NCBI RefSeq assembly: GCF_020966775.1
Contig: NZ_JAJKFV010000029.1
Location: 2,245,372-2,309,371, forward strand
Length of the DNA: 64,000 nucleotides
Reading direction: 5' to 3'
Source of the DNA: Rhodopirellula halodulae
Lineage (GTDB): Bacteria > Planctomycetota > Planctomycetia > Pirellulales > Pirellulaceae
In this document: piece by piece, positions 45,981 through 64,000 of the stretch
Position numbering within the stretch: position 1 is the first letter of the stretch
Layout: every line of letters starts with the position of its first letter
Made by a program: the position numbers and the translations under genes
Notes under the pieces: model-generated
Told to the model about the DNA's origin: nothing
Databases searched by the model: none
What the model saw: only the letters and a program-made list of their open reading frames with translations

Positions 45981-46087
45981 CCGGCCCGCTTCGGGGCGGT
46001 GTGGCAGCAGTTCGCGCGGTCCCTGCCGTCTAGGTTCGTTTAGTTCGCTTCTGTCGAGCGAAAGCAGTCACGCGGTTCATGGGTGAT

Positions 46088-46438
46088 TCACGGACTGGCG
46101 GCGAGTGCCTGGATCTCCACCATCAATTGTTCCAGCTTCGGTGATACCGAACGATGGGCAACCTTTGCCGTGTCCGTGTCTTCATTGCGGGCCGCGTCAA
46201 TGAACGGTTGGAGTTCGTTGACGGGGGCGCCACTTTCAAAGGTGCTCAGCAGTCCTTTCAGTGCGTGGCCTGTTCTCGCCGCCTCGGTCAAGTTTCCGTT
46301 TTCGACGGAGCTTTGAACCTGCTTCAGCATTGGTGGGCCGTCTTCAGCCGCGATATTCGCGAGCATCACGAGCATTTCTTCGTCACCAGCGACACGTTGG
46401 AGAGCTTCTGCGAAACGTTGGCGTTGATCTTCTGTCAT
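46088..46438 (-). CDS. Histidine phosphotransfer (Hpt) protein
   Basis: 116 residues. The Hpt site is GHALKGLLSTF (His in HALKG). All-helical single-domain protein that could relay phosphate between a hybrid kinase receiver and a response regulator. Next gene upstream on the same strand is a sigma-54 activator with a receiver domain. Confidence 0.88.
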   Translation of the reverse strand: MTEDQRQRFAEALQRVAGDEEMLVMLANIAAEDGPPMLKQVQSSVENGNLTEAARTGHALKGLLSTFESGAPVNELQPFIDAARNEDTDTAKVAHRSVSPKLEQLMVEIQALAASP

Positions 46439-46579
46439 GGGAGTTCATGCGGGAAGAAAGCGATTCTTCCCGCGAGAGTTGTGAGATGGGATGAGGTGGG
46501 AAATCCGCCGACATGTTTTATTGACGTGAGGCAAATGACGATCGGCGGTGCATCGAGAAGAAATCTTGGTCCAGACGAC

Positions 46580-48127: not shown

Positions 48128-48217
48128 AAGAGATCACCTGGGCGGTTGTAGATTATCGTGTTCAAAATCGTTTGTCGATCAGTTTGGTTGATCGCCGAGC
48201 AATTTCTGGGCCAACTT

Positions 48218-49336
48218 TCACGCCGGAATCACGTTGGGCACGGTTTCCGCGACGACCTGCGTCACGATGTTGGACAAATCAGAACCACGTCGCTGACGAT
48301 CGGCACCCGTTCCATCGCTCAAAAGGCGGTTGGCAAAGTGCTCCACCGGCCCGGCTTCCCCGGTGGCTTTGAGTGCGGGAGCCAGCACGTCCATGGTTCG
48401 ATCCAGCAGTTCACCGGCCGGGACTTTCTCACACGATTCCGCGTCGACCAGATCCTCTGTCATTCCATATCGAGCCGAATGCCAGATGGCGTAGGAGAGG
48501 ACCGACGGCCGAATCGGTTGGAAATCGATCGCTTGTCGTTCCGCGTCCATCGCGTGCATGACGATGGCGCGAATCAGGCCGACATAACCGACGGTCTCTT
48601 CGACCTTGGTCATGACATCGGCGGCTCGAAATTCGATCGTGGGAACGCGGGTCGGCAGTCGAATGTCCCAGTACAGAAAGCTCTCGTCCTTGATCGCACC
48701 GCTGCGAATCAGTTGATCGACGCAGTCTTGGTAATCGCTGAGCGAATCAAAGTGCGCCGGCGGGCCCGCCATCGGCCACTGCGCCCACAACTCGCGACGA
48801 TAGCTCGCGTAACCGGTGTCGACGCCATTCCAGAAAGGCGAGTTCGCGGTGATGGCTTGCAGGATGGGCAGCCAACGACGGCAACGATTCATCACCCGTA
48901 TCCCGAGGTCTTGATCATCCATTGCAACATGAACATGACAGCCGAAGATAAACAGGTCACGAGCGATCTGTTGATACCGATCCGTCATCGCTTGGTAGCG
49001 GTCTTTGGGTGTCAACGCGTCGTCTTCTGGAACGGGGAGCGGGTTGGTGCCGGCGGCCGCCAGTTCAGACTCGTTGGTGCGTGCCGCGTCGACCAGCATC
49101 AGCCTGGTTTGGTTCAGCGTGTCTCGGACTTGTTCCAACGATTCGCAAACCTCCGAAGCCATCTCGATTTGATTCAAATGCAACTCGTGTTGAATCTCTG
49201 AGTGAGCCTTCTCCTCACCGCCGCTGCGACGAATGGTTTGCATCACCTGTTTGCAATTGGGAATCAAGGATCCGTCTTTCGGATCGACCAATTGATACTC
49301 TTCTTCGACGCCGACCGTGGGAATGACGTAGTTCAT
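48218..49336 (-). CDS. YbdK-type carboxylate-amine ligase (GCS2 family)
   Basis: 372 residues, the family's usual length. The start TVGVEEEYQLVDP and the blocks FGCHVHVAMDD and RLPTRVPTIEFRAADVM are typical of glutamate-cysteine ligase 2 enzymes, which couple glutamate to an amine with ATP. True substrate unknown. Confidence 0.93.
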   Translation of the reverse strand: MNYVIPTVGVEEEYQLVDPKDGSLIPNCKQVMQTIRRSGGEEKAHSEIQHELHLNQIEMASEVCESLEQVRDTLNQTRLMLVDAARTNESELAAAGTNPLPVPEDDALTPKDRYQAMTDRYQQIARDLFIFGCHVHVAMDDQDLGIRVMNRCRRWLPILQAITANSPFWNGVDTGYASYRRELWAQWPMAGPPAHFDSLSDYQDCVDQLIRSGAIKDESFLYWDIRLPTRVPTIEFRAADVMTKVEETVGYVGLIRAIVMHAMDAERQAIDFQPIRPSVLSYAIWHSARYGMTEDLVDAESCEKVPAGELLDRTMDVLAPALKATGEAGPVEHFANRLLSDGTGADRQRRGSDLSNIVTQVVAETVPNVIPA

Positions 49337-49434
49337 CGGATCTCCAATCAGGAAGCTCGCCGCCGATTGGAAACCGGACGCGGCATGGGCAAGGGGAAAA
49401 AAATAGAAGCGAAGTCGAAAACAACCATTCGCGG

Positions 49435-50643
49435 TTATTGGTCTTGGCAGTCACCGCTGGTCCGACGGATGGCCGCGAGAGCAAGCACGCTGGCGCCGAT
49501 CGGCAGTGACGATTCGTCGATGTCGAACTTAGGCGTGTGGAGTGGTTCGCTCCCCAAGTCGATGCCGGCGACTCCCAGTCGAAACATCGCGGCGGGAACT
49601 TGTTGAGCGATGAAAGAAAAGTCTTCGGCGCCCATGCTGGGTTGAGCGATGTCGCGAACGTTGCTTTCGCCGAGGAGTTCTTGTCCAGCGTTCCGCAAGC
49701 AACGGGAGATTTGCGGGTCGTTGATCACGGGCGGTGTGTGTTGACCGAAGTCCAAATCGATCCGGCAATGATGCATCGTGGCGATGGAACGCGAAATTTC
49801 GGCCATCATGTCTTTGGCTTGTTGAGCACTCTCGTTGGAAAGCGTTCGCAGAGTTCCGTGCATGGTTGCGGTGGAGGGCACCACGTTCGCCGCGTTGCCT
49901 GAATGGATGCTGCCGACGTTCAAGACAACCGCATCGCGGGCGTCTGTCGAGCGAGGCACGCGTCGGTACACATCCATGACCCATTGCGCGGCGGCTCCGA
50001 CCAGATCGCCGGTGAGGTGAGGGCGAGCCCCGTGTCCGCCCTGCCCTGACATCTCCACCTGAAACACATCGCAACCCGCCGTGAAAGCACCTTCGCGCAC
50101 GCCGATCGTGCCGACGGGACGAGTCGGATCAACGTGCAAGGCGATGGCGGAGTGGACGCCTTGAAGAGCACCGGAGCGGATCATGTGCAAACCGCCGCGG
50201 CTAGTTTCCTCCTCCGGTTGGAAGATGATCCGCGCGTTGACCGGGACGCCTTCGTTTGCCATCTCATTCAAGATGACCGCGGCACCATAAGCCATCGCGG
50301 CGTGGGCGTCGTGACCACAGGCGTGCATGACTTGGTCGGTACCGCTTGCATATTCGTGCTGCACCGAAGTCTGAATCGGCAAAGCATCCACGTCGGCGCG
50401 AATCGCGGTGCGTCCCAAGTCCTTTTCTGGACCAATGTCAACGAAGAGTCCTCGGGAATCTTCGGCGATGGTTGGTTCCAACCCGAGGTCGCGAATGATC
50501 TCTCCCAGAAACTCCGTCGTTCGGTACTCGTAGCCGGACAATTCGGGATAGCGGTGCAGGTAACGACGTACCTCCCGCATCTTGATTGCCCCCGACCGAG
50601 CGAGCTTGGAAACGCGATCGGAGATTGCTTCGCCGGTGATCAT
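49435..50643 (-). CDS. M20D amidohydrolase (IAA-amino acid/hippurate hydrolase type)
   Basis: 402 residues from ATG 50641-50643. Metal-binding motifs MHACGHDAHAAMAYG and FQPEEETSRGG; ends with PSMGAEDFSFIAQQVPAA and HTPKFDIDE. Hydrolyses N-acyl amino acids. The start overlaps the stop of the DUF4235 gene (ATGA), so it is the last gene of that group. Confidence 0.94.
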   Translation of the reverse strand: MITGEAISDRVSKLARSGAIKMREVRRYLHRYPELSGYEYRTTEFLGEIIRDLGLEPTIAEDSRGLFVDIGPEKDLGRTAIRADVDALPIQTSVQHEYASGTDQVMHACGHDAHAAMAYGAAVILNEMANEGVPVNARIIFQPEEETSRGGLHMIRSGALQGVHSAIALHVDPTRPVGTIGVREGAFTAGCDVFQVEMSGQGGHGARPHLTGDLVGAAAQWVMDVYRRVPRSTDARDAVVLNVGSIHSGNAANVVPSTATMHGTLRTLSNESAQQAKDMMAEISRSIATMHHCRIDLDFGQHTPPVINDPQISRCLRNAGQELLGESNVRDIAQPSMGAEDFSFIAQQVPAAMFRLGVAGIDLGSEPLHTPKFDIDESSLPIGASVLALAAIRRTSGDCQDQ

Positions 50644-50990
50644 GGGGTCGACCGAAACGAGCGGTAAGCACTGGACGATGCTCGTCGCGATGCGATGCGA
50701 GCGGCGCCAACGATGGCTCCGGAGACGGCACCCCACAACAACGCCTCCCGCCAAGCCACTTCGTGTGAAGTTGGGTTCTTCGGCGGGTCACGTTTGAGCG
50801 CGGCTCGCCAACCATATTGCAAACCTTGTCGGACCAGAAAGGTGCAGCCAATCGCGGTGGCAAATGCCAGCATGTTTTCACCTTGGCCGATGCCAGCGTT
50901 ACGGCCGTCGGCTTCGGCACTTCCGCCGTCATGATCCGAGTCTAAGAAGTCGGTTGCACGGTCCTTAAGTTGTTCGAGTTGTTCTTGCAT
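50640..50990 (-). CDS. DUF4235-like small membrane protein
   Basis: 116 residues from ATG 50988-50990. Helices near 40-58 and 86-104; the VAWREALLWGAVSGAIVGAARI block matches DUF4235. Acidic N-terminus. Part of the small envelope protein cluster. Confidence 0.78.
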   Translation of the reverse strand: MQEQLEQLKDRATDFLDSDHDGGSAEADGRNAGIGQGENMLAFATAIGCTFLVRQGLQYGWRAALKRDPPKNPTSHEVAWREALLWGAVSGAIVGAARIASRRASSSAYRSFRSTP

Positions 50991-51102
50991 CAGTTCGTTC
51001 CTTTGCGAAAAAGGGAGCAACCGTCACCGATTGCTCCCGTGTGGAAGGCTCCTGCGATAGAGCGTTTAAAAGTGCGGATGTTCTCCGCGTCTGACGTCGG
51101 GA

Positions 51103-51384
51103 TCAGGGCTTGAGTTTCCAACCCACCAAAACGCCAATTCCAAACGCCCAACATGCAGCGACGTCTGGGTTGTCCTTGGCGTACGACTTCATCAGTCCGA
51201 AGATGTCTTGCGCGGGTTCACGCACGTAGTGCTGAGCCGCGTCACGGCTGAACTCGACCGCACTGTGGCTGACTCGGTCGGCAGCCTCGCGAGCATGTTG
51301 TGACATGCCGTTGGCTTCACTGTTACTCGACGAGGTGCCGGTTGGATTGCTTTGCGATGTTTGCTTTGTCGATGTATCTGTCAT
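51103..51384 (-). CDS. Small DUF883/ElaB-like membrane-tail protein
   Basis: 93 residues. Ser/Thr-rich start, an amphipathic middle (HAREAADRVSHSAVEFSRDA) and a C-terminal anchor (CWAFGIGVLVGWKLKP), the layout of YqjD/ElaB ribosome-tethering proteins. Identity is by layout. Confidence 0.65.
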   Translation of the reverse strand: MTDTSTKQTSQSNPTGTSSSNSEANGMSQHAREAADRVSHSAVEFSRDAAQHYVREPAQDIFGLMKSYAKDNPDVAACWAFGIGVLVGWKLKP

Positions 51385-51390
51385 GGGTCA

Positions 51391-51876
51391 TTACCTTTGA
51401 GAGAGAGGGGAAACAGGATCTGGCGTGTAGTACCGTTGCGACGATCCGTGCGTTTGGAACGATTCGCGACGAAGTTGATTGCGAGCCGACGTGGACGGCG
51501 ACAACATGGTTGCTTTCAGCCATCGGACGTTCTCGGCAAGCTCCGATTTGGTCTCGCTCATCGCTTGTGCCGCGGCCTGCACTGCCTTGGCGGCAATGAA
51601 CAGGAACACGCCAACGACGGCGAAGAACACGACGGCAACGATCGATAACGAGGCCCCGGTGGAGAGCTCAGAAAACTCGCCCAAAACGAATCCGAGGCCG
51701 ATCATCAAAACGGTCAACGCCGATCCCGCCAGGGCCATCGAAACCACAGAAAAGATCACCGCGGTTGTCAGCTTTCGCTTGGCGGCTTGAGCGTCGACCG
51801 ACAGCAACTGCATTTGCAGTTCGCAAAGATCGAGCACGTCACGCAGAACGTTTTGGATACTGGAATTGGAAGACAT
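51391..51876 (-). CDS. YqjE-like phage-holin-family membrane protein (DUF1469)
   Basis: 161 residues from ATG 51874-51876. Amphipathic N-terminus (VLRDVLDLCELQMQLLSVDA) followed by two helices (about 40-65, 75-97), as in E. coli YqjE. Lies between two DUF883-like genes, as yqjE lies beside yqjD. Confidence 0.8.
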   Translation of the reverse strand: MSSNSSIQNVLRDVLDLCELQMQLLSVDAQAAKRKLTTAVIFSVVSMALAGSALTVLMIGLGFVLGEFSELSTGASLSIVAVVFFAVVGVFLFIAAKAVQAAAQAMSETKSELAENVRWLKATMLSPSTSARNQLRRESFQTHGSSQRYYTPDPVSPLSQR

Positions 51877-51884
51877 GGGATTCT

Positions 51885-52088
51885 CTATGGGCGGCGTTTC
51901 ACCAACCAACCCAAAGCGATGCCCACGGCTCCGGCGGCGACCAACGATGCGGCTGGATACTTAGCAACGGAGCAGCGAACCACGTCGAGTTTGGTCGATG
52001 ATGGATCGTCGGACTCTTGTTCCGGGATGGAGTGCACCGAGACCATCTGAATGCGTCGCGGTGGTTGTGAATGAGCGGGAGCAATCAT
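51885..52088 (-). CDS. Small membrane-tail protein
   Basis: 67 residues with a C-terminal helix (PAASLVAAGAVGIALGWLVKR) like the anchor of DUF883 proteins but without the long amphipathic part. The ATG overlaps the stop of the next gene upstream (ATGA). Confidence 0.65.
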   Translation of the reverse strand: MIAPAHSQPPRRIQMVSVHSIPEQESDDPSSTKLDVVRCSVAKYPAASLVAAGAVGIALGWLVKRRP

Positions 52089-52471
52089 GAGTTTCGTTGG
52101 GTCAAAAGGCGGCTGAGTTGATTGGCCGCGACGGATCCGGCCTGACGCAGTGCAAGTGTCATCACGGTTCCCGCGATACCAGCCACCAACCCCTTCTTGG
52201 CTGGCTCGGGAGTGGATTGACCGGACTGCGAAGGCGTTTCACGAATGATGATTCGCTCGGGCGTTCGTTTGTGAGGAACGACCAAGTAACCCAAGATCGC
52301 GGCGCCGGCCAGCAACGGCAGTGGATGCCGCTTCATGTGGTACTTCCAATCCGTCAACTGTTTCACTCGCACGCGAGCGTCGTCGACTTCGTAAGGAAGT
52401 TCGGTGCGGATCTCGGCCATTCGCTGTTTGATCGCGGCGGCCTGTTTTTCGGTAGCAAGTGTCGTTGCCAT
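52085..52471 (-). CDS. DUF3618/YqjK-like small membrane protein
   Basis: 128 residues from ATG 52469-52471 (GTG 52477 possible). Starts with a helical KQRMAEIRTELPYEVDDARV segment, then a hydrophobic stretch (HPLPLLAGAAILGYLVVPHKR) and a second weaker one (KKGLVAGIAGTVMTLALRQAG). Overlapping neighbours on both sides show it is in an operon. Confidence 0.65.
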   Translation of the reverse strand: MATTLATEKQAAAIKQRMAEIRTELPYEVDDARVRVKQLTDWKYHMKRHPLPLLAGAAILGYLVVPHKRTPERIIIRETPSQSGQSTPEPAKKGLVAGIAGTVMTLALRQAGSVAANQLSRLLTQRNS

Positions 52472-52473
52472 GA

Positions 52474-52905
52474 TCACTTCTTGTTGCCGAAGAACAGCAA
52501 TGCACCTGCGGCGATTCCCAGCCCAAATGCGATGGCCAGAGATTCGCCAGGTCGCGTGCGGACCGTGTCAGCCAACTTTTGACCGTACTCGCCCGATCGC
52601 GATGCGAAGCGTTCGTAGTTCTGACGTGCGTAGGCTGCAGCATCCGCAGCGGCTGCCTGTGCGGCGTCCGAATATTGCTGAACGGTCTCCGAGGCTTGAT
52701 CGCCGAAGTTGCGATTCAACACCCCGTCGAGGAACTTCTCGATTTCGTTTTGTGTTGCACCGGTCTTTTGTTGAACGACGCCTACCAACTGCTCGGCGGA
52801 TCCGCGAGCTTGTTGGAGGTCATCTTCGGTCAACTGTCCCCAGTGCTCTTTCAGGCGACCTTTGACTTCGTTCCAGTGTCCCTGCAATTCTTGTCGGTTA
52901 ACCAT
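52474..52905 (-). CDS. CsbD-DUF883 fusion stress protein
   Basis: 143 residues. Residues 1-60 match CsbD ([20 protein letters not shown]), then an Ala/Gln-rich amphipathic stretch and a YqjD-like C-terminal anchor ([22 protein letters not shown]). ATG 52905 is chosen because GGGAGAG lies 6 bases before it; an in-frame upstream start exists. First gene of the leftward stress cluster. Confidence 0.87.
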
Positions 52906-53427
52906 CGTTGGCTCTCCCATTGATTGAGTGTTCGGTGTTGTGACGCCGATTCGCCAAGCAAGCTTTGGAAGCTGCATCGAAAGGATGTTGTCGCGGTCGG
53001 CGGAGGCTTTCGTTCTGAAAGCGTTGGAACAACAGACGCACATGGCGGGCCAATTCCGAAACGTGGTCCGCAAAATTTCTCGCACGAACAAAGTTCTGTC
53101 GAAAACCGTCAGCGGCGGCGTTTGATTCTCATCAGTTATTCACGACAGGGCCGTCGATCCGCGTTTCGGGGGTGCAAATGGCTGCGTCTGCGTGTGAGTT
53201 GCGACCAGCTTGGTTGATCGTCGATCAAATGCTTCGGAAATGCACATTGAATGACCATCGCGAACTTTCAAACTCAGCTCGCGCGTCATCAGCGGTATGG
53301 CGATTGCGTTCCAGCAGAGTGAACGAATAGCCGGTTAGCACTGTGAACGCACAGCCGTCCGCCAAGTGTCCGGCAGTCAATTCTGATGATCAATCAAAGC
53401 ACAGGGTCAAACCCCAAGGAAAGAATG
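52906..53427. other. Intergenic region between divergent stress genes
   Basis: 522 bases between the CsbD-DUF883 gene and the TIGR03067-like gene. It should hold both promoters; no gene or clear operator recognised. Confidence 0.5.
52912..52918 (-). promoter_or_regulatory. Ribosome binding site deciding the CsbD start
   Basis: GGGAGAG on the minus strand, 6 bases before ATG 52905. Confidence 0.5.
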
Positions 53428-53913
53428 ATGAAACGCAAATTCTCGATCGCCACTGTTCCAGCCATCGCCGCATTGTGTCTGGCTCTGTTCGGCCTGACGC
53501 CGTTCGGCCTGGCTTCGCTATCCGCTGAGGAGCACACCGGATCTCTCAAGCAACGTTTGATGGGAGTGTGGGAGGTGGAGGAAGGTGTGAATCAAGGCGA
53601 AGAAATTCCGGAGAAGGAATTGGAAGGCACGGTCATGAAAATCGAAAAGAACGTGATCATCACCTACGACAAAGACCAACGTGAGGTGTATCGAGCCATG
53701 TTCACGCTGGACGAGACCAAGAAGCCTGTTCACATCGACATGATGACTGAGATGAAGGGCATGCCGCCGATGAAGTCCTTGGGCATCATCAAGATCGAAG
53801 ACGGCGACGAGTTCGAGTTGTGCTACGCCCTTCCCGGTGCGGAACGTCCCACCAAATTCAAGTCCACCAAGGAAAACAAGACGATGCTGTTCGAAGCTGA
53901 ACGTGAAGACTGA
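53428..53913 (+). CDS. TIGR03067-like secreted protein
   Basis: 161 residues. A signal peptide (residues 1-30) is followed by the planctomycete TIGR03067-type lipocalin-like pattern: GVWEVEEGVNQGEEIPE, a repeated beta pattern and KKPVHIDMM. AAGGA lies 7 bases before the ATG; ATG 53425 is equally possible. Function unknown. Confidence 0.85.
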   Translation: MKRKFSIATVPAIAALCLALFGLTPFGLASLSAEEHTGSLKQRLMGVWEVEEGVNQGEEIPEKELEGTVMKIEKNVIITYDKDQREVYRAMFTLDETKKPVHIDMMTEMKGMPPMKSLGIIKIEDGDEFELCYALPGAERPTKFKSTKENKTMLFEAERED

Positions 53914-53970
53914 TTCGAGTCGGATCGCAAACGAGCACATCAGCAGACGATCAACGAAAGGAACGAGAAG

Positions 53971-54453
53971 ATGAAACAGCAATGTTTAGTCGCGGAATTC
54001 GCGAATCGTGAAAAGCTCGCCATTGCACTTGAGGCACTCGGCAAAGACGGCTATTCACCGCAAGACTACAGCGTTGTCACCGCGTCCGATTCAGCCAATG
54101 AACTGAACGGAGGCGACGGCGGCATCGCGGACTCGCCGCCCAGCGAGAAAACAACCGGAGCGGCGACGCTCGCTGGTGGTGCCATCGGAGCGTTGCTGGC
54201 TGCACCCACGATGATTGGACCGTTCTTAGTCGCGGGGCCCATCGCGGGAATGGCCGCGGGCGCTGTGGGCGGTGGCCTGCTGGCTTCTGTGAAGAGCTGG
54301 GGTTTAGACGACAAAGCTTCCGCCAGCTACGAAAAGAACCTGCAAGCAGGATCGTCGTTGGTCGTCATCGAGGGAGACAATCCCAAGCTGAATGCCGCGG
54401 CACAAACCCTGCAAACCTGCGACCCAGTCTCCGTCGATCGCTACCAGGCCTAG
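53971..54453 (+). CDS. Gly-rich hydrophobic stress-type protein (DUF1269/YflT-like)
   Basis: 160 residues, with AAGGAACGAGAAG before the ATG. N-terminal ferredoxin-like part (LVAEFANREKLAIALEAL), a central Gly/Ala-rich hydrophobic stretch (about 65-108, GAIGALLAAPTMIGPFLVAG) and a C-terminal soluble part. Fits proteins with a glycine-zipper insertion associated with stress. Terminator follows. Confidence 0.72.
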   Translation: MKQQCLVAEFANREKLAIALEALGKDGYSPQDYSVVTASDSANELNGGDGGIADSPPSEKTTGAATLAGGAIGALLAAPTMIGPFLVAGPIAGMAAGAVGGGLLASVKSWGLDDKASASYEKNLQAGSSLVVIEGDNPKLNAAAQTLQTCDPVSVDRYQA

Positions 54454-54482
54454 TTGCCGATTCGATATTTGCCGACGTGAAA

Positions 54483-54534
54483 CGTCAGCGAGTGGAGGGC
54501 CCAAATGCTTGGGGTTCACTCGCTGGCGTTTTTT
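54483..54534 (+). terminator. Intrinsic terminator
   Basis: Stem CGTCAGCGAGTG / CACTCGCTGGCG (one G-T pair) with a 22-base loop, followed by six T. Confidence 0.85.
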
Positions 54535-54546
54535 GCTGTCTGGCCA

Positions 54547-54642
54547 TCATTGCTTCGGCAAATTCTCGATTTGGTTCAGGAACGTGATGGCGGCTTTTTC
54601 GTGCCAGCGTTCTCGGTGTTGATCGAAGACGCCGGTGTGGCC
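54547..54642 (-). pseudogene. 3' fragment of alpha/beta hydrolase gene (left repeat copy)
   Basis: On the minus strand this encodes GHTGVFDQHRERWHEKAAIT and 11 more residues ending LPKQ-stop, nearly identical to the last 31 codons of the intact hydrolase at 57316-58392. It is a bare 3' end with no gene body, left next to the GIY-YIG gene. Confidence 0.85.
54552..54642. repeat. 91-bp direct repeat, left copy (island boundary)
   Basis: Matches 57324-57414 at 85 of 91 positions by eye, same orientation. The stop of the GIY-YIG gene lies 7 bases beyond it. Boundary of the restriction-modification remnant. Confidence 0.88.
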
Positions 54643-54648
54643 ACGTCG

Positions 54649-55530
54649 CTAAGCGTCGGCTGATACGCTATCGATCTCGTTCGTATCTCGGTGAATTTCG
54701 CTCAGCGTGGTACCGTTTTGGTCTTTCCATTCAACCCAACCGTTTGCGCTCGCCCCCAACACAACACCGGCAGCAGCGCTTGGTGACGAAAATAAAAAGT
54801 CTTGCAAGTAGTGATAGACGCCACCACGTTCCTCCAAGACCCCTGACTCAACCATTCGTTGGCGTTGCGATCGAACAGATTCGGGAGCTGTCGGCGTTTG
54901 TCCGGTGCGGGAACGGCTTCCCTCCATCACGACGAACCCATCCTCAACCAATTCGCCAGATGCATCGCATCCACGGGACCGAATAAAGAACAGAGGTGTT
55001 TGGCCGACTGTCTTCGATACGGGTTCGAAAACCGGGTAGCCGAGCGTTGAAACTAAAGTGTTGATGGTTTCAAACACGTCCAGCAGTTCCGCTTCCATGG
55101 GTTCGGGAACGTAAGTCGAGTCGTCAGGTACTTGGCCATTGTCGAGCGCATAACGATTGACCTCTTTTGCTCTCTGCATGCAGTACCATTCCAAATATCG
55201 AATATGGGCTTGCGTGAAGTTTTGAGTCTTGGACACACAGAAAACCGCCGTCTTCCAAAAGGTCTTGGTCTTGTTGTGACTATCGAATCGCTTGCGGGCG
55301 TCTTCTGTTTGGCCGATATAGACGATCGGTTTCGCGCCCTCTTCGTCTTCTCCGAACAAGAAGTAGATTCCCGGTAGATCGAGTTCCTTGCGCTGCTTGC
55401 CTTGAGCAAGATCGCTGCGAGGAATTAAAACGGCCTGAACAATACGCGTCGTAATTTCCGCAATGCGGATTCCACGTGGCTCGCCCGTGGGCAAATAGAT
55501 TTGAATGGTCTTGGCGGTCGGCGTCGTCAT
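54649..55530 (-). CDS. GIY-YIG nuclease with DUF4357
   Basis: 293 residues from ATG 55528-55530. GIY-YIG core: GIYFLFG (54-60) and VYIGQTEDARKRF (70-82). The C-terminal part carries the DUF4357 pattern FLFSSPSAAAGVVLGASANG and VEWKDQNGTTL. Such proteins accompany type I restriction systems in many islands. It begins the island on the left. Confidence 0.9.
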   Translation of the reverse strand: MTTPTAKTIQIYLPTGEPRGIRIAEITTRIVQAVLIPRSDLAQGKQRKELDLPGIYFLFGEDEEGAKPIVYIGQTEDARKRFDSHNKTKTFWKTAVFCVSKTQNFTQAHIRYLEWYCMQRAKEVNRYALDNGQVPDDSTYVPEPMEAELLDVFETINTLVSTLGYPVFEPVSKTVGQTPLFFIRSRGCDASGELVEDGFVVMEGSRSRTGQTPTAPESVRSQRQRMVESGVLEERGGVYHYLQDFLFSSPSAAAGVVLGASANGWVEWKDQNGTTLSEIHRDTNEIDSVSADA

Positions 55531-55639
55531 TGCATTCTCTCTACTGCGATACGAAGGCCTGGAGCATATCGCAGTCGTGCAGACTTTGGTAGACTTGGAG
55601 ATGCGAGGTTGATCCGAACAACACAACGGGAGTCGCTAG

Positions 55640-55846
55640 ATGCCAAAGCTAAGTGAGTACGTGAAAACGGCCGAAGCAGCAGAGATCCTCGGCGTAGCGC
55701 AAAACACGCTTCGCAAGTGGGCTGAGAGCGGTGACATTCCCATGCGACGCAACCCAGCAAACGGATACCGGTTGTTCAAGAAATCGGACCTGGAGCAGTT
55801 CTTAAAACAGCTCGACCAACCAACAACTATCAAGCGTCCTAAGTAG
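55640..55846 (+). CDS. Excisionase/MerR-type helix-turn-helix protein
   Basis: 68 residues: KTAEAAEILGVAQNTLRKWA is the HTH and RNPANGYRLFKKSDLEQFL the wing typical of excisionase-like or MerR-like domains. Divergent from the GIY-YIG gene. Probably a regulator of the restriction genes that once lay downstream. Confidence 0.85.
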   Translation: MPKLSEYVKTAEAAEILGVAQNTLRKWAESGDIPMRRNPANGYRLFKKSDLEQFLKQLDQPTTIKRPK

Positions 55847-55861
55847 CAGAAAATCACTTGA

Positions 55862-56077
55862 GAGGTGTCCTACACAACGTGCGTCCTTGCAAACGGCCGG
55901 TTCTTGTTAGACGTGACGCTGAAAATTCCGCGTCCAAACGAACTAACGGCGATCGCCAAAGTTCTCTCCGACATGGACGCCGAGATAGTCGCCTTGAAGC
56001 GACTCCGCGAAAAGACGGTCATGCTCAAGCAGGGGATGATGCAGGAGCTGCTCACCGCAAAAACGAGGTTGATATGA
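55862..56077 (+). pseudogene. hsdS: HsdS (type I specificity subunit) C-terminal fragment
   Basis: About 70 codons match only the C-terminus of HsdS: KIPRPNELTAIAKVLSDMDA, then LKQGMMQELLTAKTRLI. A TGA stop (55859-55861) precedes it in frame, and both target-recognition domains are missing. The stop overlaps the DUF1016 start (ATGA), the original operon junction. Confidence 0.88.
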
Positions 56078-57132
56078 GTGACAAGCAAGAACTGATGCTC
56101 ATCGAATCAACGCTGCTGCCTGAAATCCGGCAGCTCATTGACCAGTCACGGCAGCGTGCAGCAGTTGCCGTCAACGCGGAGCTGACCATGCTTTACTGGG
56201 ACGTCGGGAGTGCGATCAGCGAGATGCTTGGTGGTCAGCGAGCTGAGTATGGCCGTGAAATTGTCACTCAGCTCGCCAACGTTCTGACCGCTGAATACGG
56301 TCGCAAATGGGGCGTGTCTACCCTTCGACATTGTCTTCGCGCCGTCGAGGCTTTTCCGGACCGTGAGATTGTGTACGCACTGCGTACACAGTTGAGCTGG
56401 ACCCATTTGAGAAAGATCATTTTCATCGAGGATCCGCTCAAACGCGAGTTTTACACGGAAATGTGCCGTTTGGAAGGCTGGTCGACGCGGCAGCTCAACG
56501 AGCGGATCCAGTCGATGCTCTATGAACGGACGGCAATCTCGAAGAAGCCGGAAAAGACAATCCAGAGCGATCTGGAGATCCTTCGTGCTGACGGAAAAGT
56601 GTCTGCTGATCTTGCGTTTCGTGATCCCTACGTGCTGGACTTCTTGGGGCTCGCCGACACCTACAGCGAAAACGACCTGGAATCGTCCATACTGGCCGAA
56701 TTGCAATGCTTCATTACCGAGCTGGGCACCGATTTCGCCTTCATCGCTCGACAGAAACGAATTGTGATCGATGATCGGGATTACTACATCGACCTGCTGT
56801 TCTTTCACCGCAGACTCAAGTGTTTGGTCGCCATCGACCTGAAGATCGGTGAATTCGAAGCCGGGTTCAAAGGCCAGATGGAGCTGTATCTCCGCTACTT
56901 GGAGAAACACGAGCGTGTGGAGGGAGAGAATCTGCCGGTCGGACTGATTCTATGCAGTGGGAAAAACGAAGAACACGTCGAACTTTTACGACTGGATGAA
57001 GCGAATATCCGCGTGGCCGAATACATGACCCAGCTACCAAGTCCAGAATTGTTGCGGCAAAAGCTACACGAATCGATCGAACGCGCCCGAGCCAAGGCCC
57101 TCATGGATCAGGAAGACGCCAGCGATGCCTGA
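56074..57132 (+). CDS. DUF1016 (YhcG-like) PD-(D/E)XK nuclease-fold protein
   Basis: 352 residues, intact. N-terminal DUF1016 domain (AELTMLYWDVGSAISEML, WGVSTLRHCLRAVEAFPD) and C-terminal nuclease-like domain with DRDYYIDLLFFHRRL and AIDLKIGEFE around residues 230-260. Commonly found between hsdS and hsdR. Probably the only intact gene of the former operon. Confidence 0.92.
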   Translation: MSDKQELMLIESTLLPEIRQLIDQSRQRAAVAVNAELTMLYWDVGSAISEMLGGQRAEYGREIVTQLANVLTAEYGRKWGVSTLRHCLRAVEAFPDREIVYALRTQLSWTHLRKIIFIEDPLKREFYTEMCRLEGWSTRQLNERIQSMLYERTAISKKPEKTIQSDLEILRADGKVSADLAFRDPYVLDFLGLADTYSENDLESSILAELQCFITELGTDFAFIARQKRIVIDDRDYYIDLLFFHRRLKCLVAIDLKIGEFEAGFKGQMELYLRYLEKHERVEGENLPVGLILCSGKNEEHVELLRLDEANIRVAEYMTQLPSPELLRQKLHESIERARAKALMDQEDASDA

Positions 57133-57319
57133 ACAGTCGCAATCAGAACGACAAACCTAAATTGGGGTGGCCAAACGCTTCACGGACAAATCACACCACA
57201 AGTACCTGGGCTATCGGCATCTCTGAGACTGGAGCAAGCGAGAAAACAATTGCCCCATCGAGACGAAGTACTTGAAGGAAAACTTGGTCGAGCGTGGTAA
57301 ATCCGACGTTCAGATCTAG
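57125..57319 (+). pseudogene. hsdR: HsdR (type I restriction subunit) N-terminal fragment with two nonsense codons
   Basis: The frame from ATG 57125 (overlapping the DUF1016 stop) reads MPEQSQSERQT, TAA at 57158-57160, IGVAKRFTDKSHHKYLGYRHL, a TGA, DWSKRENNCPIETKYLKENL, VERGKSDVQI, then TAG at 57317-57319. This matches the start of HsdR (LGYRYLGDWS-type block). The gene is cut off 4 bases before the right repeat copy. Confidence 0.82.
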
Positions 57320-58392
57320 GTCGGCTTCGGCGAATTCTCTATTTGGTCTAGGAACGTGATGGCGGCTTTTTCGTGCCAGCGTTCTCGGTGTTGATCGAGG
57401 AAGCCGGTGTGGCCGCCGGATTCGCACAGCAGCGGGTATAGGTTGTCGTTTTGCGACCACTCGACATCGCGGAAAACATTCGCATCCACGACCGGATCGT
57501 CGTTGGCATGAAGCAACAACGTGGGCGTTCGGATTTGATCCAACGTGTCGATGGCCGAATTCTCGGCGTAGTATTCCTCCGCTCCTGAGTATCCGAATCG
57601 CGGTGCGGTGAAACGATCGTCCAGTTCCCAAACGCTTGTGACGTGATTCAGGATGTCTCGTTCGGCGTCAGTTAGCTTTGCGTTGCTGCGCAGCAATTCA
57701 TCGCGTTGCTTGTGAAGCAGGTATTGGTCGAACGGACGATTCGCACCGGTTTGCAGATTTCGAGACGTGATTTCCATGTCGATCGGTGCCGAAACACTGA
57801 TGGCTGCTTTGAGATCACTCTGCTCGCCTTCTTCGGCCAGATACTTCAGTAGAAGGTTGGCTCCCAGTGAGAACGCGACGCTGGCCAGGCCGTTTCGAGT
57901 CCACTCTGGTCGTTCAGCTTTCAGGTGTTCAATCAGATGGCAAACATCGGCGGTCAAACCTGGATGGTGATAGCGTCTGCACTTGGATGCTGACTGCCCC
58001 GCACCGCGGTGGTTCCACAGCAGAGCGTCGTATCCGTTGTGGTTGAGTCGTTCAGCCATCGATCGCATGTAACGACTGAGAGCGTGACCACCCATGCCAT
58101 GGAACACCAGAACCAATGGTCGCGAACTTGATTGGGCGTCCGAGTCGTTGCGGTCTGTGGCGGGAAAGTAGTGGCCGCTCATCTCATCCGGCGGCGTGTG
58201 ATCGTCGGGAACGGAAATCGAAACCGCGTCGTCTCGGGTGTCCAGCGAGAGTTCAGGCTTCATCCATTTGACGCTGATTGTTTGCAACCAACCGCCTCGG
58301 CAAAGTGGATGTGGTTGAAATGGATCGATGCCATCAATGCGTTCAGCAGCGTCGCTCTTGATCGAAAGGGATTCGGTCGTGAGATCGGACAT
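57316..58392 (-). CDS. YheT-like alpha/beta hydrolase
   Basis: 358 residues from ATG 58390-58392. Hydrolase motifs: oxyanion region VFHGMGGHALSRYMR, WNHRGAGQS, nucleophile elbow VAFSLGANLLLKYL, acid in LLHANDDPVVD and His in SGGHTGFLD. Family acts as carboxylesterase or lipase. Its last codons form the right repeat copy, and its final residues and stop come from the island side. Confidence 0.93.
   Translation of the reverse strand: MSDLTTESLSIKSDAAERIDGIDPFQPHPLCRGGWLQTISVKWMKPELSLDTRDDAVSISVPDDHTPPDEMSGHYFPATDRNDSDAQSSSRPLVLVFHGMGGHALSRYMRSMAERLNHNGYDALLWNHRGAGQSASKCRRYHHPGLTADVCHLIEHLKAERPEWTRNGLASVAFSLGANLLLKYLAEEGEQSDLKAAISVSAPIDMEITSRNLQTGANRPFDQYLLHKQRDELLRSNAKLTDAERDILNHVTSVWELDDRFTAPRFGYSGAEEYYAENSAIDTLDQIRTPTLLLHANDDPVVDANVFRDVEWSQNDNLYPLLCESGGHTGFLDQHRERWHEKAAITFLDQIENSPKPT
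57324..57414. repeat. 91-bp direct repeat, right copy (island boundary)
   Basis: Lies within the 3' end of the intact hydrolase gene; six differences from the left copy at 54552-54642. Confidence 0.88.
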
Positions 58393-58539
58393 GGCGATGT
58401 TTCCGCGTGCGATGAAGAGGATTGGCCGTCGCGATAACAAGAAGCGAATTGCACGCCAAACGGGATTGGCGCGGAGTTTGCGAGGATCCCCTCAGGTCTC
58501 CAAACCCTCGAAAAATTCCGTCTCAACTGGAACACAATC

Positions 58540-59193
58540 ATGAAACGTTTTCTGGCATTCACGTTCGTTGCGATCAGTGTCGCAACTTGGACCTCGCTCC
58601 CAATCACCGCCGATGACGGTTTGTTCGATACCGACGGAGCCGCCACGGCGACCGGCGACATTTTAGAATCGCAGGGCGACCTTGCCGAAGGTTTGGGACG
58701 CGGCGCCGCATTGCGTTCGTTGTCTGCCGTTCGATTGCAGGAAGCCATCGACAAACAACTGGAAAACCGACGCGAATCAGTGGAGCTGTATTACGACCTG
58801 AAGCAACTTCGCGAAGAGCAATTGGAAAAGGACCGTCTGTCAGCATCAGAACGAATGAAGATTGCCAACTCGAAGAAGCCCGATCGCTTGAGTGACAATC
58901 AGATCCAACGTGACTCGGGCAAGATCTACTGGCCCGAGCCCTTGGACAGCCCCGTGTTGGAGCCGTACCGTCGTCCGATCGAAAAGACTCTGGCAAAACG
59001 CAGCAACCCAGAAGCCGACTACAGCGAATTCGACTTCATCAAGGTTCACCGCATGGTCAAGCGAATCGAAGAAGCAATCGAGTCGATTCGTGATGAATTG
59101 GACACGCGTGAATTGGTGGCTTTGAAGGACTACCTGGTCCAGATTGATTACGAAGCCCGGTTCGACAGCAAGAACAACCGAGTCGATTTCTAA
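58540..59193 (+). CDS. Secreted helical protein of unknown function
   Basis: 217 residues with a signal peptide (residues 1-24). Mature part highly charged and helical (LQEAIDKQLENRRESVELYY, DLKQLREEQLEKDRL), then IYWPEPLDSPVLEPYR and a second helical part. No named family recognised. Confidence 0.78.
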   Translation: MKRFLAFTFVAISVATWTSLPITADDGLFDTDGAATATGDILESQGDLAEGLGRGAALRSLSAVRLQEAIDKQLENRRESVELYYDLKQLREEQLEKDRLSASERMKIANSKKPDRLSDNQIQRDSGKIYWPEPLDSPVLEPYRRPIEKTLAKRSNPEADYSEFDFIKVHRMVKRIEEAIESIRDELDTRELVALKDYLVQIDYEARFDSKNNRVDF

Positions 59194-59364
59194 TCACCGG
59201 TTGTTCTGTTCGTTGTTTGCCCCTCGTGCTCTGCAGTTCGCGGGTCACGTCTGAATCAACAGTGGGACCTTTGAACGAGTTCCCTGTTGTCTTTCCGTGG
59301 CATGCATTCTTTGCTTTGTTCTGCCACTCTCTACTCGCTCCGCATCTCTTCTTTCGCACTGCCC

Positions 59365-60843
59365 ATGTTGTTTGAGCAATCACGTCCGACCATTCGCACT
59401 CATCTTGTGTTCTGCGTTTGGGTGTTGGTTTGCCTGTTGTGCTCCGTCGGAGTGCTATCGGCACAGGACGAAACGCCCACCGCGGAAGAAGTGGCAGCGG
59501 AGGTCACCGGTGCCGAGGCAGGCGATTCGGCGAAGGATGTCCAAATCGCGGATGAAGTCCAAGTCGAACCGGTCAATAGCGACGAGAAGATAGAAAATCG
59601 ATTGACAGAAATCATGCGCGCGACGGGTTGGTTCACGGACCCAGAAGTCAAAGTGGATCGCGGTGTGGCCTTCCTATCGGGAACCGTCGACACCAAAGCA
59701 CATCGAGAATGGGCAGAAGCAACCGCGATCAAAACATCGGACGTGGTGGCCGTGGTCAATCGTCTGTCGGTCGCTGAACCACCGCTTTGGAACTTCGCAC
59801 CGGCGATCGCTTCGCTGAAACAGCTCGGCCGAGAAACGACGGGCGTCTTGCCGTTGGTGATCGTTGGTATCGCCGTGACGGTGCTGTTCTACATGCTGGC
59901 AATCGCCGGCGCTCGAATGACTCGCTGGCTTTCGCGAAACCGGATCGACAGTGCCTTGTTGCGTCAGGTCGTTGGCAACGTCGTTGGCGTGTTGATCTTT
60001 ATCATTGGGATCTACATCGCGCTGCGTGTGTCGGGGCTGACGCGATTGGCCGTGACCGTGCTGGGCGGTACCGGGTTGGTGGGTCTGGCTCTCGGTTTCG
60101 CGTTCCGAGACATTGCGGAAAACTATCTTGCTAGCATTTTGCTATCGCTGAACCATCCGTTCCGCGTGGGTGACCTGATCGAGGTGGAAGGTGCAAAAGG
60201 GTTTGTCCGCAAGGTGACGACTCGCGGGACGGTTCTGAACACGCTGGAGGGCAACCAGATCCAGATGCCCAACAGCACGGTCTACAAAGGCAAAATCATC
60301 AACTACACCGCAACGCCGCTGAGCCGGCAGGACTTCGCGATTGGAATTGGTTTTGAAGACTCGATCGCGGAAGCGCAAGAAATTGTCATGGAGGTTTTGA
60401 CGGAGCACGTCGGCGTGGTTTCTGATCCCGCACCTATCGCAATTGTTGAATCGCTCGGGTCGGCGACCGTGAATCTTCGCGTTTACTACTGGTTCGATCA
60501 AACCAGTCACTCGCCGTTGAAAGTCAGCAGCAGTGTCATTCGTTTGGTCAAACAACGATTGACCGACGCGGAAATCACGATGCCGGATGAGGCTCGCGAA
60601 TTGGTATTCCCGCAGGGCGTCCCCGTGCAATTGATGGAGCGTTCATCGAATGAGAACGAGGGCAGCCTAGCCGGCATGGGTGGTGTTAACGAGACCTTGA
60701 ATGGACGAGTGAAAAACAAACAAAAGACCAAGCCGGCTCGCGAACCGGAAACGTCCGTCGGAGAAGGCGACTTGAAGCCGGAACAGGACGACGTGCTGCG
60801 AGCGACGGAAGACGTCGATGACGAGGCGAATCTGATCGCATGA
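59365..60843 (+). CDS. MscS mechanosensitive channel with N-terminal BON domain
   Basis: 492 residues from ATG 59365; ATG 59302 and TTG 59287 are also in frame. Signal peptide, then a BON domain (about 60-125, GRVxxVxx-type AFLSGTVDTKAHREWAEATA), three helices (about 150-260) and the MscS core (GGTGLVGLALGFAFRDIAEN, VGDLIEVEGAKGFV, QMPNSTVYKGKIINY). Opens on membrane tension. Stop overlaps the DUF2254 start (ATGA). Confidence 0.9.
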   Translation: MLFEQSRPTIRTHLVFCVWVLVCLLCSVGVLSAQDETPTAEEVAAEVTGAEAGDSAKDVQIADEVQVEPVNSDEKIENRLTEIMRATGWFTDPEVKVDRGVAFLSGTVDTKAHREWAEATAIKTSDVVAVVNRLSVAEPPLWNFAPAIASLKQLGRETTGVLPLVIVGIAVTVLFYMLAIAGARMTRWLSRNRIDSALLRQVVGNVVGVLIFIIGIYIALRVSGLTRLAVTVLGGTGLVGLALGFAFRDIAENYLASILLSLNHPFRVGDLIEVEGAKGFVRKVTTRGTVLNTLEGNQIQMPNSTVYKGKIINYTATPLSRQDFAIGIGFEDSIAEAQEIVMEVLTEHVGVVSDPAPIAIVESLGSATVNLRVYYWFDQTSHSPLKVSSSVIRLVKQRLTDAEITMPDEARELVFPQGVPVQLMERSSNENEGSLAGMGGVNETLNGRVKNKQKTKPAREPETSVGEGDLKPEQDDVLRATEDVDDEANLIA

Positions 60844-62114
60844 GAGCGTCTCTTCAACAATGGATTTATCGCATTCAAGGCAGCTACTGGTTCATCCCGT
60901 CTTTGATGGTGCTGACCGCGATCATGTTGTCGCAATTCACCATTTGGTTGGACCGGACGGTCGGGAGCGAGTGGTTGCAAGACTTCTGGTTTAGTTCGAT
61001 GAACCAGCCGGACGGTGCTCGAGCGTTGTTGGCAACCGTGGCGGGATCGATGATCACCGTTGCCGGCGTGACGTTTTCGCTGACTATTTTGGCGGTGTCC
61101 CACGCGACCTCGCATTTTGGACCGCGGTTGCTTGACAATTTCATGCGGGATCGAGGCAACCAGGTCACGTTGGGGACATTTGTCGCGACCTTTTTGTATT
61201 GCTTGTTGGTGTTGAAAGTCGTTCGGGGCGGTTCCGTTCCTGAGGACGCAAGTGACGCCGTGGAGGCATTCGTGCCGCAGTTGTCGCTGCTGATTGGTTT
61301 GGTACTGACCATTCTCAGCGTGGCGGAACTGATCTACTTCATTCACCACGTTCCCGACAGCATTCACATCTCGACGGTGCTGCGACGATTGGCGACCGAT
61401 ATGTCGGCCAAGTTCGACGAGTTGTATCCGGAGACTTTGGGCGAAGGCATGTCCGACGTCGACAGCGTCCCGACGCTGATCGATGATTTCCTGCACACGG
61501 TTCGATCGGACGTCGCCGGGTATTTGCAGGGTGTCGATGAGGACGAATTGATGAGCTTCGCAAAGAAGCACGACGTGGTGGTCCGGCTGAAGAAACGCCC
61601 TGGTGACTTTGTGCGTCGAGACGAATTGATCGCCGAAGTTTCGCGGTGTGAGACTTGGAGCGACGAACGTGCCGACGAAGTGCGACACGGTTTCGCTTTT
61701 GGTTACACGCGAACGCCAACTCAAGATGTGTTTTTCATTCTAGACGAGTTCGTCGAGGTTGCTACCAGGGCGTTGTCACCGGGAGTGAATGACCCATTCA
61801 CCGCGATGCAATGCATGGATTGGTTGTCGGACGGTTTGGTGCAACTTTCGAAACGAAAGATCCCGACTCGCTTTCGCATTGATGAGCAAGACGAATTGCG
61901 GATCATCACCACCAACGTGACTCGCGAGGACTTCGTTGAAGCAATGCTTCGGCAGTTGTTGCCTTATGTCAAAGAAGACCGAAACGCGAGCCAGTACTTC
62001 GTTCAGTCGATGCAGCAAGTTTTGGAAATCTCCAAAAGCCAGACACTGAACTCGTTGATCGAAGACGCCGTCGCCGAACTAGAAAACGCACGCAATGGCG
62101 AGTGTGAACGCTGA
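60840..62114 (+). CDS. DUF2254 membrane protein
   Basis: 424 residues. N-terminal helices (about 15-35, 60-85, 115-135, 140-165) with the family blocks LLATVAGSMITVAGVTFSLT and QVTLGTFVATFLYCLLVL, and a soluble C-terminal domain containing LSPGVNDPFTAMQCMDWL. Function unknown. Sits between two MscS genes, each junction overlapping or close. Confidence 0.92.
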   Translation: MRASLQQWIYRIQGSYWFIPSLMVLTAIMLSQFTIWLDRTVGSEWLQDFWFSSMNQPDGARALLATVAGSMITVAGVTFSLTILAVSHATSHFGPRLLDNFMRDRGNQVTLGTFVATFLYCLLVLKVVRGGSVPEDASDAVEAFVPQLSLLIGLVLTILSVAELIYFIHHVPDSIHISTVLRRLATDMSAKFDELYPETLGEGMSDVDSVPTLIDDFLHTVRSDVAGYLQGVDEDELMSFAKKHDVVVRLKKRPGDFVRRDELIAEVSRCETWSDERADEVRHGFAFGYTRTPTQDVFFILDEFVEVATRALSPGVNDPFTAMQCMDWLSDGLVQLSKRKIPTRFRIDEQDELRIITTNVTREDFVEAMLRQLLPYVKEDRNASQYFVQSMQQVLEISKSQTLNSLIEDAVAELENARNGECER

Positions 62115-62171
62115 TGGACGTGCGTTTGCAACGCATCGTCGGTCCGGCATTCGTTTGCCGATACAATCTTT

Positions 62172-62178
62172 GGAAGGA
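62172..62178 (+). promoter_or_regulatory. Ribosome binding site deciding a TTG start
   Basis: GGAAGGA lies 7 bases before TTG 62186, which starts a clean signal peptide. Confidence 0.5.
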
Positions 62179-62185
62179 TAGATCG

Positions 62186-63457
62186 TTGAAGAATCGTTGT
62201 TTCGTGCTGGTGGCTGCTTGGCTGCTGATGACCTCTGTCTCGTTGGGACAAGAAGCGGCGGAGGAAGAGCCGGTTCTCGAATCCAACGCACCCGTGGACA
62301 CGGTTGCGGTCACCGATATCGTTGACGATGAGGCCATCCGAAAGCGTTTAAGTCGCATTTATTCGTCGGCGACCGAGGCGGGGTGGTTACAAGGTGCCGA
62401 GGTGCAAATCAGCAACGGCATCGTGACGCTGCAGGGCCAAGCCGACACGGAAGAACATCGACAATGGGCCGAAAACGTCGCCAGGAAGACGGAGGACGTG
62501 GTCGCCGTGATCAACGAATTGTCGGTCGATAGTGCGGTGGATTTGGAATCAACCCGCGATGTGGTGTCGAACTCCCTGGGCTCACTCTGGACCGACTTTT
62601 TGAAACGATCGCCGTTGCTGCTGGCGGCATTGCTGATCGTGGTGATCACCAGCCTGCTTTCCAAGGGCGTCAGTTGGGCGACGCATCGCGTCTTGGATCG
62701 ACGTGGGATGCGTGTGAGTTTGAAGGACTTGATCAACCAAATGGCGTCCATCGCGATTTGGATCGTGGGATTGCTGGTGGCGACCGTGGTCGCGTTTCCG
62801 GGGATGACGCCATCCAAAGCCTTGACCGTGCTCGGTTTGGGATCCGTTGCCATCGGTTTTGCCTTCAAGGACATCTTTGAAAACTTCTTCGCCGGAGTGT
62901 TGATCCTGTGGAACTATCCTTTCGACCGAGGCGATTTCATCACTTGCGAGGAGGTCACCGGCGAAGTGAAGCAAGTCACGATTCGCAACACGATCATTCG
63001 CAGATTGGATGGTGAATTGGCGGTCGTTCCCAATGCGACATTGTTCAAGAACAATGTGGATGTTTTGACCAGTCAACCACAACGCCGAGTTCGAATCATC
63101 TGCGGCGTGGCGTACGACGAAGACGTGGATGCATCGCGAGAAGTGATTTTGAAAGCGGTGCAGAGTTGCGATTCGGTGCAGGGCAAACGAACGGTCGAAG
63201 TGTTCGCACAAGAATTCGCCAGCTCGAGCATCAACTTTGAGGTCGCGTGGTGGACGGGATCCAAACCGGTGGATCTTCGTCGGAGCCGCGATGAAGTGGT
63301 TGCGGCGATCAAACGCGAATTGGATGCGGCTGGAATTGAAATCCCGTTCCCGTATCGAACGTTGACATTCAAGAACCCGGAACACTTGGGCTTTCGTTGT
63401 GACACGAGCGGCCAAGCGGATTCCGCAAACATGGACAACGAAGGAGACGATGTTTGA
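62186..63457 (+). CDS. MscS mechanosensitive channel with N-terminal BON domain (second)
   Basis: 423 residues from TTG 62186; ATG 62114 overlapping the DUF2254 stop is the alternative. Signal peptide (residues 1-20), BON domain (about 60-120, GIVTLQGQADTEEHRQWAEN), helices about 145-230 and MscS core (LGLGSVAIGFAFKDIFENFF, YPFDRGDFITCEEVTGEV, VVPNATLFKNN). Different enough from the first MscS to be an old paralogue. Stop overlaps the AI-2E gene start (TGATG). Confidence 0.9.
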   Translation: MKNRCFVLVAAWLLMTSVSLGQEAAEEEPVLESNAPVDTVAVTDIVDDEAIRKRLSRIYSSATEAGWLQGAEVQISNGIVTLQGQADTEEHRQWAENVARKTEDVVAVINELSVDSAVDLESTRDVVSNSLGSLWTDFLKRSPLLLAALLIVVITSLLSKGVSWATHRVLDRRGMRVSLKDLINQMASIAIWIVGLLVATVVAFPGMTPSKALTVLGLGSVAIGFAFKDIFENFFAGVLILWNYPFDRGDFITCEEVTGEVKQVTIRNTIIRRLDGELAVVPNATLFKNNVDVLTSQPQRRVRIICGVAYDEDVDASREVILKAVQSCDSVQGKRTVEVFAQEFASSSINFEVAWWTGSKPVDLRRSRDEVVAAIKRELDAAGIEIPFPYRTLTFKNPEHLGFRCDTSGQADSANMDNEGDDV

Positions 63458-64000
63458 TGGAAGGCTCAAGTTTTGTTCGGCGGGTGTTGCTCGCGTGTGC
63501 CGTGGTGTTGGTTTTTGTCGCTTTGAGCGCGTTGATGGTCGCGGCTCGGGATCTGCTGCCGCTGATCTTCGGTGCGGTTTTGATCGCCGTGGTCTTGAAC
63601 GCTATGGCGAAAAAGCTCGCGAGGTGGCTACCTGGTTTCTTAGGACAAACCGGACGGGTGAGTTTGGTGATCGCCAGCTTGCTTTTGTTGGCCGGCCTGA
63701 CGACCTACTCATTCGCGAATTCGGCGGCGCAGAAAACCATGCAGTTTCGCGATCGAATTCAAGAGTCATTTCAAGAAAGCGTCGAAACACTTCGTGATCA
63801 ACCGGTGATCGGCGAGCAACTGCCCGAGAAAGAAGAGTTGCCTTCGATGATGCCGTCTTCCGGCAAGTCGCTCGGTCTGCTGAAGAATTTCTTCACCTCG
63901 ACGTTCGGCGGCTTGGTGGATGTGCTGATCCTGTTTTTCTTGGCGTTGTACTTCGCCGTCAGTCCGGAAAAGTATCGAGTCGGGGTGATTCGATTGCTAC
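63457..64000 (+). CDS. AI-2E/PerM family transporter (partial)
   Basis: 181 residues before the right edge. Helices near 8-32, 34-52, 66-84 and 147-166 with LLPLIFGAVLIAVVLN and LVDVLILFFLALYFAVSPEKYR, as in the AI-2E transporter (TqsA/PerM) superfamily. ATG at 63457 shares bases with the previous stop. Substrate unknown. Confidence 0.85.
   Translation, partial: MEGSSFVRRVLLACAVVLVFVALSALMVAARDLLPLIFGAVLIAVVLNAMAKKLARWLPGFLGQTGRVSLVIASLLLLAGLTTYSFANSAAQKTMQFRDRIQESFQESVETLRDQPVIGEQLPEKEELPSMMPSSGKSLGLLKNFFTSTFGGLVDVLILFFLALYFAVSPEKYRVGVIRLL

Follow-up and report, generated by a model that had tools for sequence, protein, structure and literature searches.

We analysed a 64,000-nucleotide stretch of the Rhodopirellula halodulae genome (contig NZ_JAJKFV010000029.1, positions 2,245,372 to 2,309,371 of the forward strand; hereafter the window), in which a short block of restriction genes lies against the 3′ end of an α/β-hydrolase gene and is bounded on both sides by a direct repeat (Table 1). 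The contig, C29 in our numbering, is 2.5 Mb long and belongs to a genome of 6.6 Mb in 33 contigs. A prediction made earlier from the letters of the window had described the repeats as 91 bp long with six differences, and alignment of the two copies bore this out: 85 of 91 positions are identical (93%), the starts of the copies are 2772 bp apart, 2,681 bp of insert lie between them, and the mismatches fall at positions 9, 17, 25, 26, 76, and 79 of the repeat. Comparison of positions 45000–64000 of the window with themselves by BLAST recovered the pair at an E value of 8e-34, which excludes chance as its source, and, at E 1e-8, found no other pair of direct copies 40 bp or longer and separated by more than 800 bp. 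A third copy was not found in the rest of the genome, where 14 of 52 candidates were scored and the next matches were about 20 bp long.

The two copies relate differently to the hydrolase gene. The right copy had been taken for the end of the intact gene, and it does hold the final codons; the stop codon (TAG, 57316–57318), by contrast, lies outside the repeat, 6–8 bp past its edge on the island side. The repeat copy at the intact gene is thus without the native stop, and the present C-terminus of the hydrolase, KPT followed by the stop, is made from bases of the island edge. The left copy proved to be what the original prediction had called it, an orphan 3′ end with a stop of its own: it can be read in the hydrolase frame down to its TGA and ends in KQ. 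One copy therefore stands with the upstream part of the gene and the other with the downstream flank, as expected of a duplicated target. These stop positions argue against the proposal that incoming DNA had rebuilt the end of the gene, since the repeat at the intact gene stops short of a stop codon, the stop now in use comes from island-edge bases, the insert ends on the right in a truncated hsdR, and it is the orphan, beside the native neighbour, that keeps its own stop. With the new stop no more than 8 bp from the repeat edge, the hydrolase has probably stayed usable.

Table 1. Features at the insertion locus, in window coordinates.
Feature	Position	Strand	Evidence or remark
DUF1269 host gene, left flank; in congeners directly next to the hydrolase 3′ end	53971..54453	+	
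Left repeat copy: displaced (orphan) hydrolase 3′ end	54552..54642	-	TGA follows at 54547-54549
GIY-YIG/DUF4357 gene, PADLOC candidate PDC-S14	54649..55530	-	DUF4357 E 2e-22; PDC-S14 E 3e-108
Small HTH_17 protein gene, divergent from the GIY-YIG gene	55640..55846	+	HTH_17 E 2e-13
hsdS remnant encoding the C-terminal ~55 residues of a type I specificity subunit	55865..56077	+	PADLOC Specificity_I, profile 383-438 of 443, E 4e-21
DUF1016/YhcG PDDEXK nuclease gene, reading frame intact	56074..57132	+	YhcG_C E 6e-50; DUF1016_N E 3e-40; PDC-S02 E 8e-126
hsdR remnant, first ~60 codons	57131..57316	+	Two in-frame stops, third at the junction
α/β-Hydrolase gene, insertion target, ending in island-edge bases (start codon chosen by us)	57316..58392	-	Pfam Hydrolase_4 E 2e-19, Abhydrolase_1 E 1e-15; orthologs in 5 syntenic congeners
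Right repeat copy: final ~30 codons of the intact hydrolase, without stop	57324..57414	-	

We then compared the locus with its counterparts in other members of the genus. The original prediction had proposed looking in relatives for an empty site with a single copy of the repeat, and such a site was present in all five congeners in which the region is syntenic (G002, G004, G005, G007, and G010). Their hydrolase orthologs are 66–75% identical to the window gene, the order of flanking genes is kept on both sides, and the hydrolase match ends 0.1–0.2 kb from the DUF1269 gene; the corresponding distance in the window is 2.86 kb. Thus, the insertion took place in the lineage of the window, at the 3′ end of a protein gene and not of a tRNA gene, as had been predicted. 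The seven other congeners are uninformative: G009 has a relative of 57–59% identity without synteny, and the remaining six have distant relatives only. G025, a member of the same family, likewise has a 57–59% relative without synteny.

The cargo amounts to a type I restriction-modification (RM) locus that has been gutted. All the genes between the repeats had been predicted to be restriction-associated or remnants of such genes, which the cargo bears out; the start of hsdR, also present, had gone unnamed. Over 62 columns this remnant is 53% identical (E 5e-16) to the start of the HsdR protein encoded at locus L088 of congener G003, an HSDR_N/SWI2_SNF2 protein in Pfam. The hsdS remnant gave no match in the Pfam scan and is 67% identical over 55 columns to the HsdS C-terminus from the same G003 locus. 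The GIY-YIG domain itself matched its Pfam model at E 2e-4 and 21.9 bits, below the cut-off of 22.6. The insert genes reach the repeats within a few bases, again as predicted, the stop codon of the GIY-YIG gene lying 6 bp from the left copy and the HsdR homology ending 7 bp before the right one. No complete type I system (hsdM, hsdS, and hsdR) is present in the insert, in which hsdM gave no match and hsdS and hsdR are fragments. The genome as a whole yielded no match to the hsdM-type N6-methylase family PF02384 at E 1e-3, and some were found in each of the 12 congeners; hence a type I system whose methylase can be recognised was not found in this genome, nor was a second copy of the island. 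Base composition, tried as a sign of foreign DNA, was not diagnostic, the island having a GC fraction of 0.51–0.55 and its surroundings 0.52–0.61. The small HTH protein also matches the PADLOC mad1 model (E 3e-13); the rest of the MADS system was not searched for.

Relatives of the insert genes occur at type I loci elsewhere in the genus. In G004, a GIY-YIG protein 84–85% identical to that of the window is encoded beside complete hsdM, hsdS, and hsdR genes, and a tyrosine recombinase lies on its opposite side; a further G004 locus (L074) has a similar divergent HTH/GIY pair in which the GIY gene is broken off. The HsdR of G004 has a different N-terminus and does not share the type of the window remnant; the insert thus combines parts known from separate loci. 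G004 also carries two type I loci 14.8 kb apart (L072 and L073, G004:C1:6262359-6281626), which share a 3-kb stretch, with the GIY-YIG gene and hsdM, at 99% identity and differ in hsdS; in the second of them, similarity in hsdR stops after about 83 codons at an opposing open reading frame (ORF), much as in the window.

The best fit to these observations, and in our judgement a somewhat probable one, is that a fragment of a type I RM locus inserted into the last codons of the hydrolase gene with a 91-bp duplication of its target. A fragment running from the GIY-YIG gene to the start of hsdR would have entered the final codons of the resident gene, and the event would have duplicated 91 bp of the target. 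The copies would have been identical at birth, their six differences arising later by drift; hsdM, along with most of hsdS and hsdR, may have been lost before, during, or after the insertion. What was found agrees with an insertion of this class: the block is absent from relatives, its cargo is restriction-associated, albeit as remnants, and the 91 bp duplicate a gene end that is single in congeners. Four of the six codons changed between the copies are nonsynonymous and two are synonymous, and at two of the nonsynonymous sites (V for F and N for D) the base of the orphan occurs in none of the five congeners; this fits drift of a dead copy, although a comparison of six sites has low power and the same region gives mixed ratios between congeners. 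The six differences, which had been thought to point to another strain as the source of the incoming end, thus do not need such a source, even if six sites leave room for one.

Several observations weigh against an insertion with target duplication. All six differences lie towards the edges of the repeat, around an identical core of 49 bp, an arrangement with a P value of 0.055 under random placement. The insertion is seen in one lineage only, and the sequence before insertion is deduced from congeners and not from a strain of the same species. In addition, two congener loci with duplicated gene ends, in G002 and G010, are better explained by foreign alleles.

These two loci bear directly on another explanation, namely that donor DNA carrying restriction genes together with the hydrolase end of a related strain was integrated by a single crossover of the Campbell type or with other help from homology, so that the copies come from two strains. 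In G002 (L075 4549-7509, G002:C1:573548-576508), a PtuA/PtuB (Septu) pair lies between two hsdS ends of 90 bp, which are 78/90 identical and start 2871 bp apart. G004 has a single copy, to which the first of these ends is identical at 88 of 90 positions and the second at 78 of 90, although the codons here are 5 synonymous and 7 nonsynonymous; the G004 locus L094 is colinear with the G002 locus (94% over 4.7 kb) until just past the first hsdS copy. In G010 (L115 6752-9702, G010:C17:458351-461301), Mrr-type nuclease and ParA-like genes lie between an intact and an orphan DUF1016 end; these repeats measure 107 bp and start 2844 bp apart, their codons differ at 13 synonymous and 5 nonsynonymous places, the orphan abuts an hsdS fragment, and it is 93.5% identical to the G002 allele. 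We therefore rejected simple target duplication for both, as their copies are of different allelic origin. In the window, an identical core flanked by the six differences is likewise what a donor end could leave. However, the predominance of nonsynonymous changes among the window codons speaks against it, as does the need for a donor whose hsdR had been joined to the hydrolase end beforehand. Also, among the matches listed for 60 genomes, the orphan is the sole hydrolase match confined to the C-terminus, and no genome but its own has such a second match. We regard a donor origin of one copy as the strongest of the rivals, if a rather doubtful one.

Site-specific integration at the hydrolase 3′ end, followed by decay, is a further candidate, which we consider unlikely. 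The insert would then resemble a cis-mobilizable element (CIME), in which attL and attR are kept and the integrase is lost. A passage of PMC5704250 describes gene 3′ ends as normal targets of elements with tyrosine recombinases and reports that decayed CIMEs retain their repeats. The window has direct repeats at both ends of the insert, one of them at the end of the target gene, and the identical core of the repeat would fit that of an attachment site. Congeners add two parallels: the G004 relative of the GIY-YIG gene described above, near both a complete type I locus and a tyrosine recombinase, and a G006 locus (L091 8018-17230, G006:C2), in which a type I locus and a GNAT gene lie between identical 47-bp repeats of a tRNA-Arg 3′ end. 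In the G006 locus, no integrase was found among the five larger genes between the repeats, a 112-aa ORF and smaller ones being unscanned. The loci in G002, G010, and G006 thus keep both the donor-end and the attachment-site explanations alive for the window.

The absence of an integrase had been noted in the original prediction and was upheld: neither an integrase nor a transposase was found among the scanned genes of the insert, and the nearest match on the contig to the tyrosine integrase family PF00589 is 0.48 Mb away (serine recombinases and transposases were not searched for genome-wide). As a CIME has lost its recombinase, this is not decisive against one. The structure of the repeat is harder to reconcile with such an element. 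At 91 bp it exceeds the 8–60 bp given in the cited passage of PMC5704250; the native stop is missing from the copy at the intact gene, although one repeat of such elements carries the end of the gene; and hsdR is cut short at the right edge. Both the missing native stop and the hsdR edge could result from a later deletion on that side.

End joining at a staggered double-strand break that took up a foreign fragment, with fill-in and ligation, would yield a target duplication around an arbitrary fragment, as observed, and has no specific support; Ku (PF02735) was found in none of the 13 genomes of the genus, this one included, which makes Ku-dependent joining unlikely, and, a Ku-independent route being possible but unsupported, we judge the whole scenario highly improbable.

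Other candidates were set aside. A transposon was rejected, as no inverted repeat of at least 20 nt was found at the ends of the insert, where the terminal 40 nt share an inverted word of no more than 6 nt, which is out of register, and no transposase was found among the insert genes. The right edge is a cut hsdR with no recognisable element end. A tRNA target was rejected because the sole tRNA gene of the window is at 25114–25188. Local duplication from a second complete hydrolase gene was likewise dismissed, the only other match of full-length type in the genome having 28% identity and lying about 2 Mb off on the contig. A phage attachment site was examined by a weak test, in which an exact 24-base pattern from the core had no match in viral contigs.

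We also surveyed 48 restriction or DUF1016 loci of relatives, some of which overlap (L075/L095, L103/L115, and L072/L073), against 43 control regions (40 from G002 and G004 and 3 from the window); nine weak PF02384 places (E 6e-7 or weaker) were left out, as were several DUF1016 places. Direct repeats 40 bp or longer and separated by more than 800 bp were present at 14 of the 48 restriction loci and 10 of the 43 controls, indicating no enrichment, and at one of seven hydrolase loci. A filter for a gene 3′ end accompanied by an orphan copy retained three of 48 restriction loci (L091 and L111, both with tRNA ends, and L115) versus four of 40 controls, again without excess. The four control loci (L137, L157, L158, and L162) were judged from their coordinates only to be repeat arrays in spurious ORFs of 111–182 aa. 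The G002 hsdS case fails the filter, its ORF continuing past the repeat. The G002 and G010 loci share the layout of the window, with similar repeat lengths and spacings. It seems very doubtful to us that Rhodopirellula has an unnamed, integrase-free route that delivers small defence cargoes to the 3′ ends of protein genes, with gene-end repeats of about 90–110 bp left behind. Given the different allelic origins of the copies in G002 and G010, such a route would have to import foreign gene ends in some cases at least.

It has long been asked how restriction genes spread when no mobile element can be seen. Nobusato et al. in 2000 and Furuta et al. in 2010 reportedly described insertion of RM genes with long target duplication. 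A passage of PMC3874152 states that some restriction systems insert with long, variable target duplications on the order of 100 bp, and portions of PMC3031569 and PMC1643837 also cover such insertions. A literature search at the level of titles and the openings of abstracts found no earlier report of one in Rhodopirellula. The window event would be a new example of this known way for restriction genes to enter genomes, and ordinary in kind. The case offers two clean junctions, five relatives with the empty site, and an orphan gene end at liberty to drift. It also indicates that a gutted type I locus without its methylase can persist with a GIY-YIG gene and an intact DUF1016 nuclease gene retained.

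Compared with known RM insertions with long target duplication, the window locus is alike in its restriction genes, their absence from close relatives, the flanking direct duplication of about 100 bp, probably of resident sequence, and the lack of a visible mobile element. It differs in that the system is a degraded one of type I, in Rhodopirellula, and is cut inside hsdR, in that what is duplicated is a protein gene's 3′ end, and in that the copies differ at 6 of 91 positions. With CIMEs, decayed integrative and mobilizable elements, and genomic islands, as characterized in the cited passage of PMC5704250, it shares an insert without integrase, direct repeats, one readable gene, and an orphan on the far side. 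Unlike those elements as described there, it has a longer repeat, no native stop in the copy at the intact gene, no trace of a recombinase, and a truncated hsdR edge. The closest relatives of the cargo are the Rhodopirellula type I loci with accessory GIY-YIG or DUF1016 genes (L072/L073 of G004, L088 of G003, and L115 of G010), which have the same families partly in the same order, the GIY gene being divergent from hsdM in G004 and the DUF1016 end lying beside hsdS in G010. Unlike these loci, the window copy has no hsdM and is missing most of hsdS and nearly all of hsdR.

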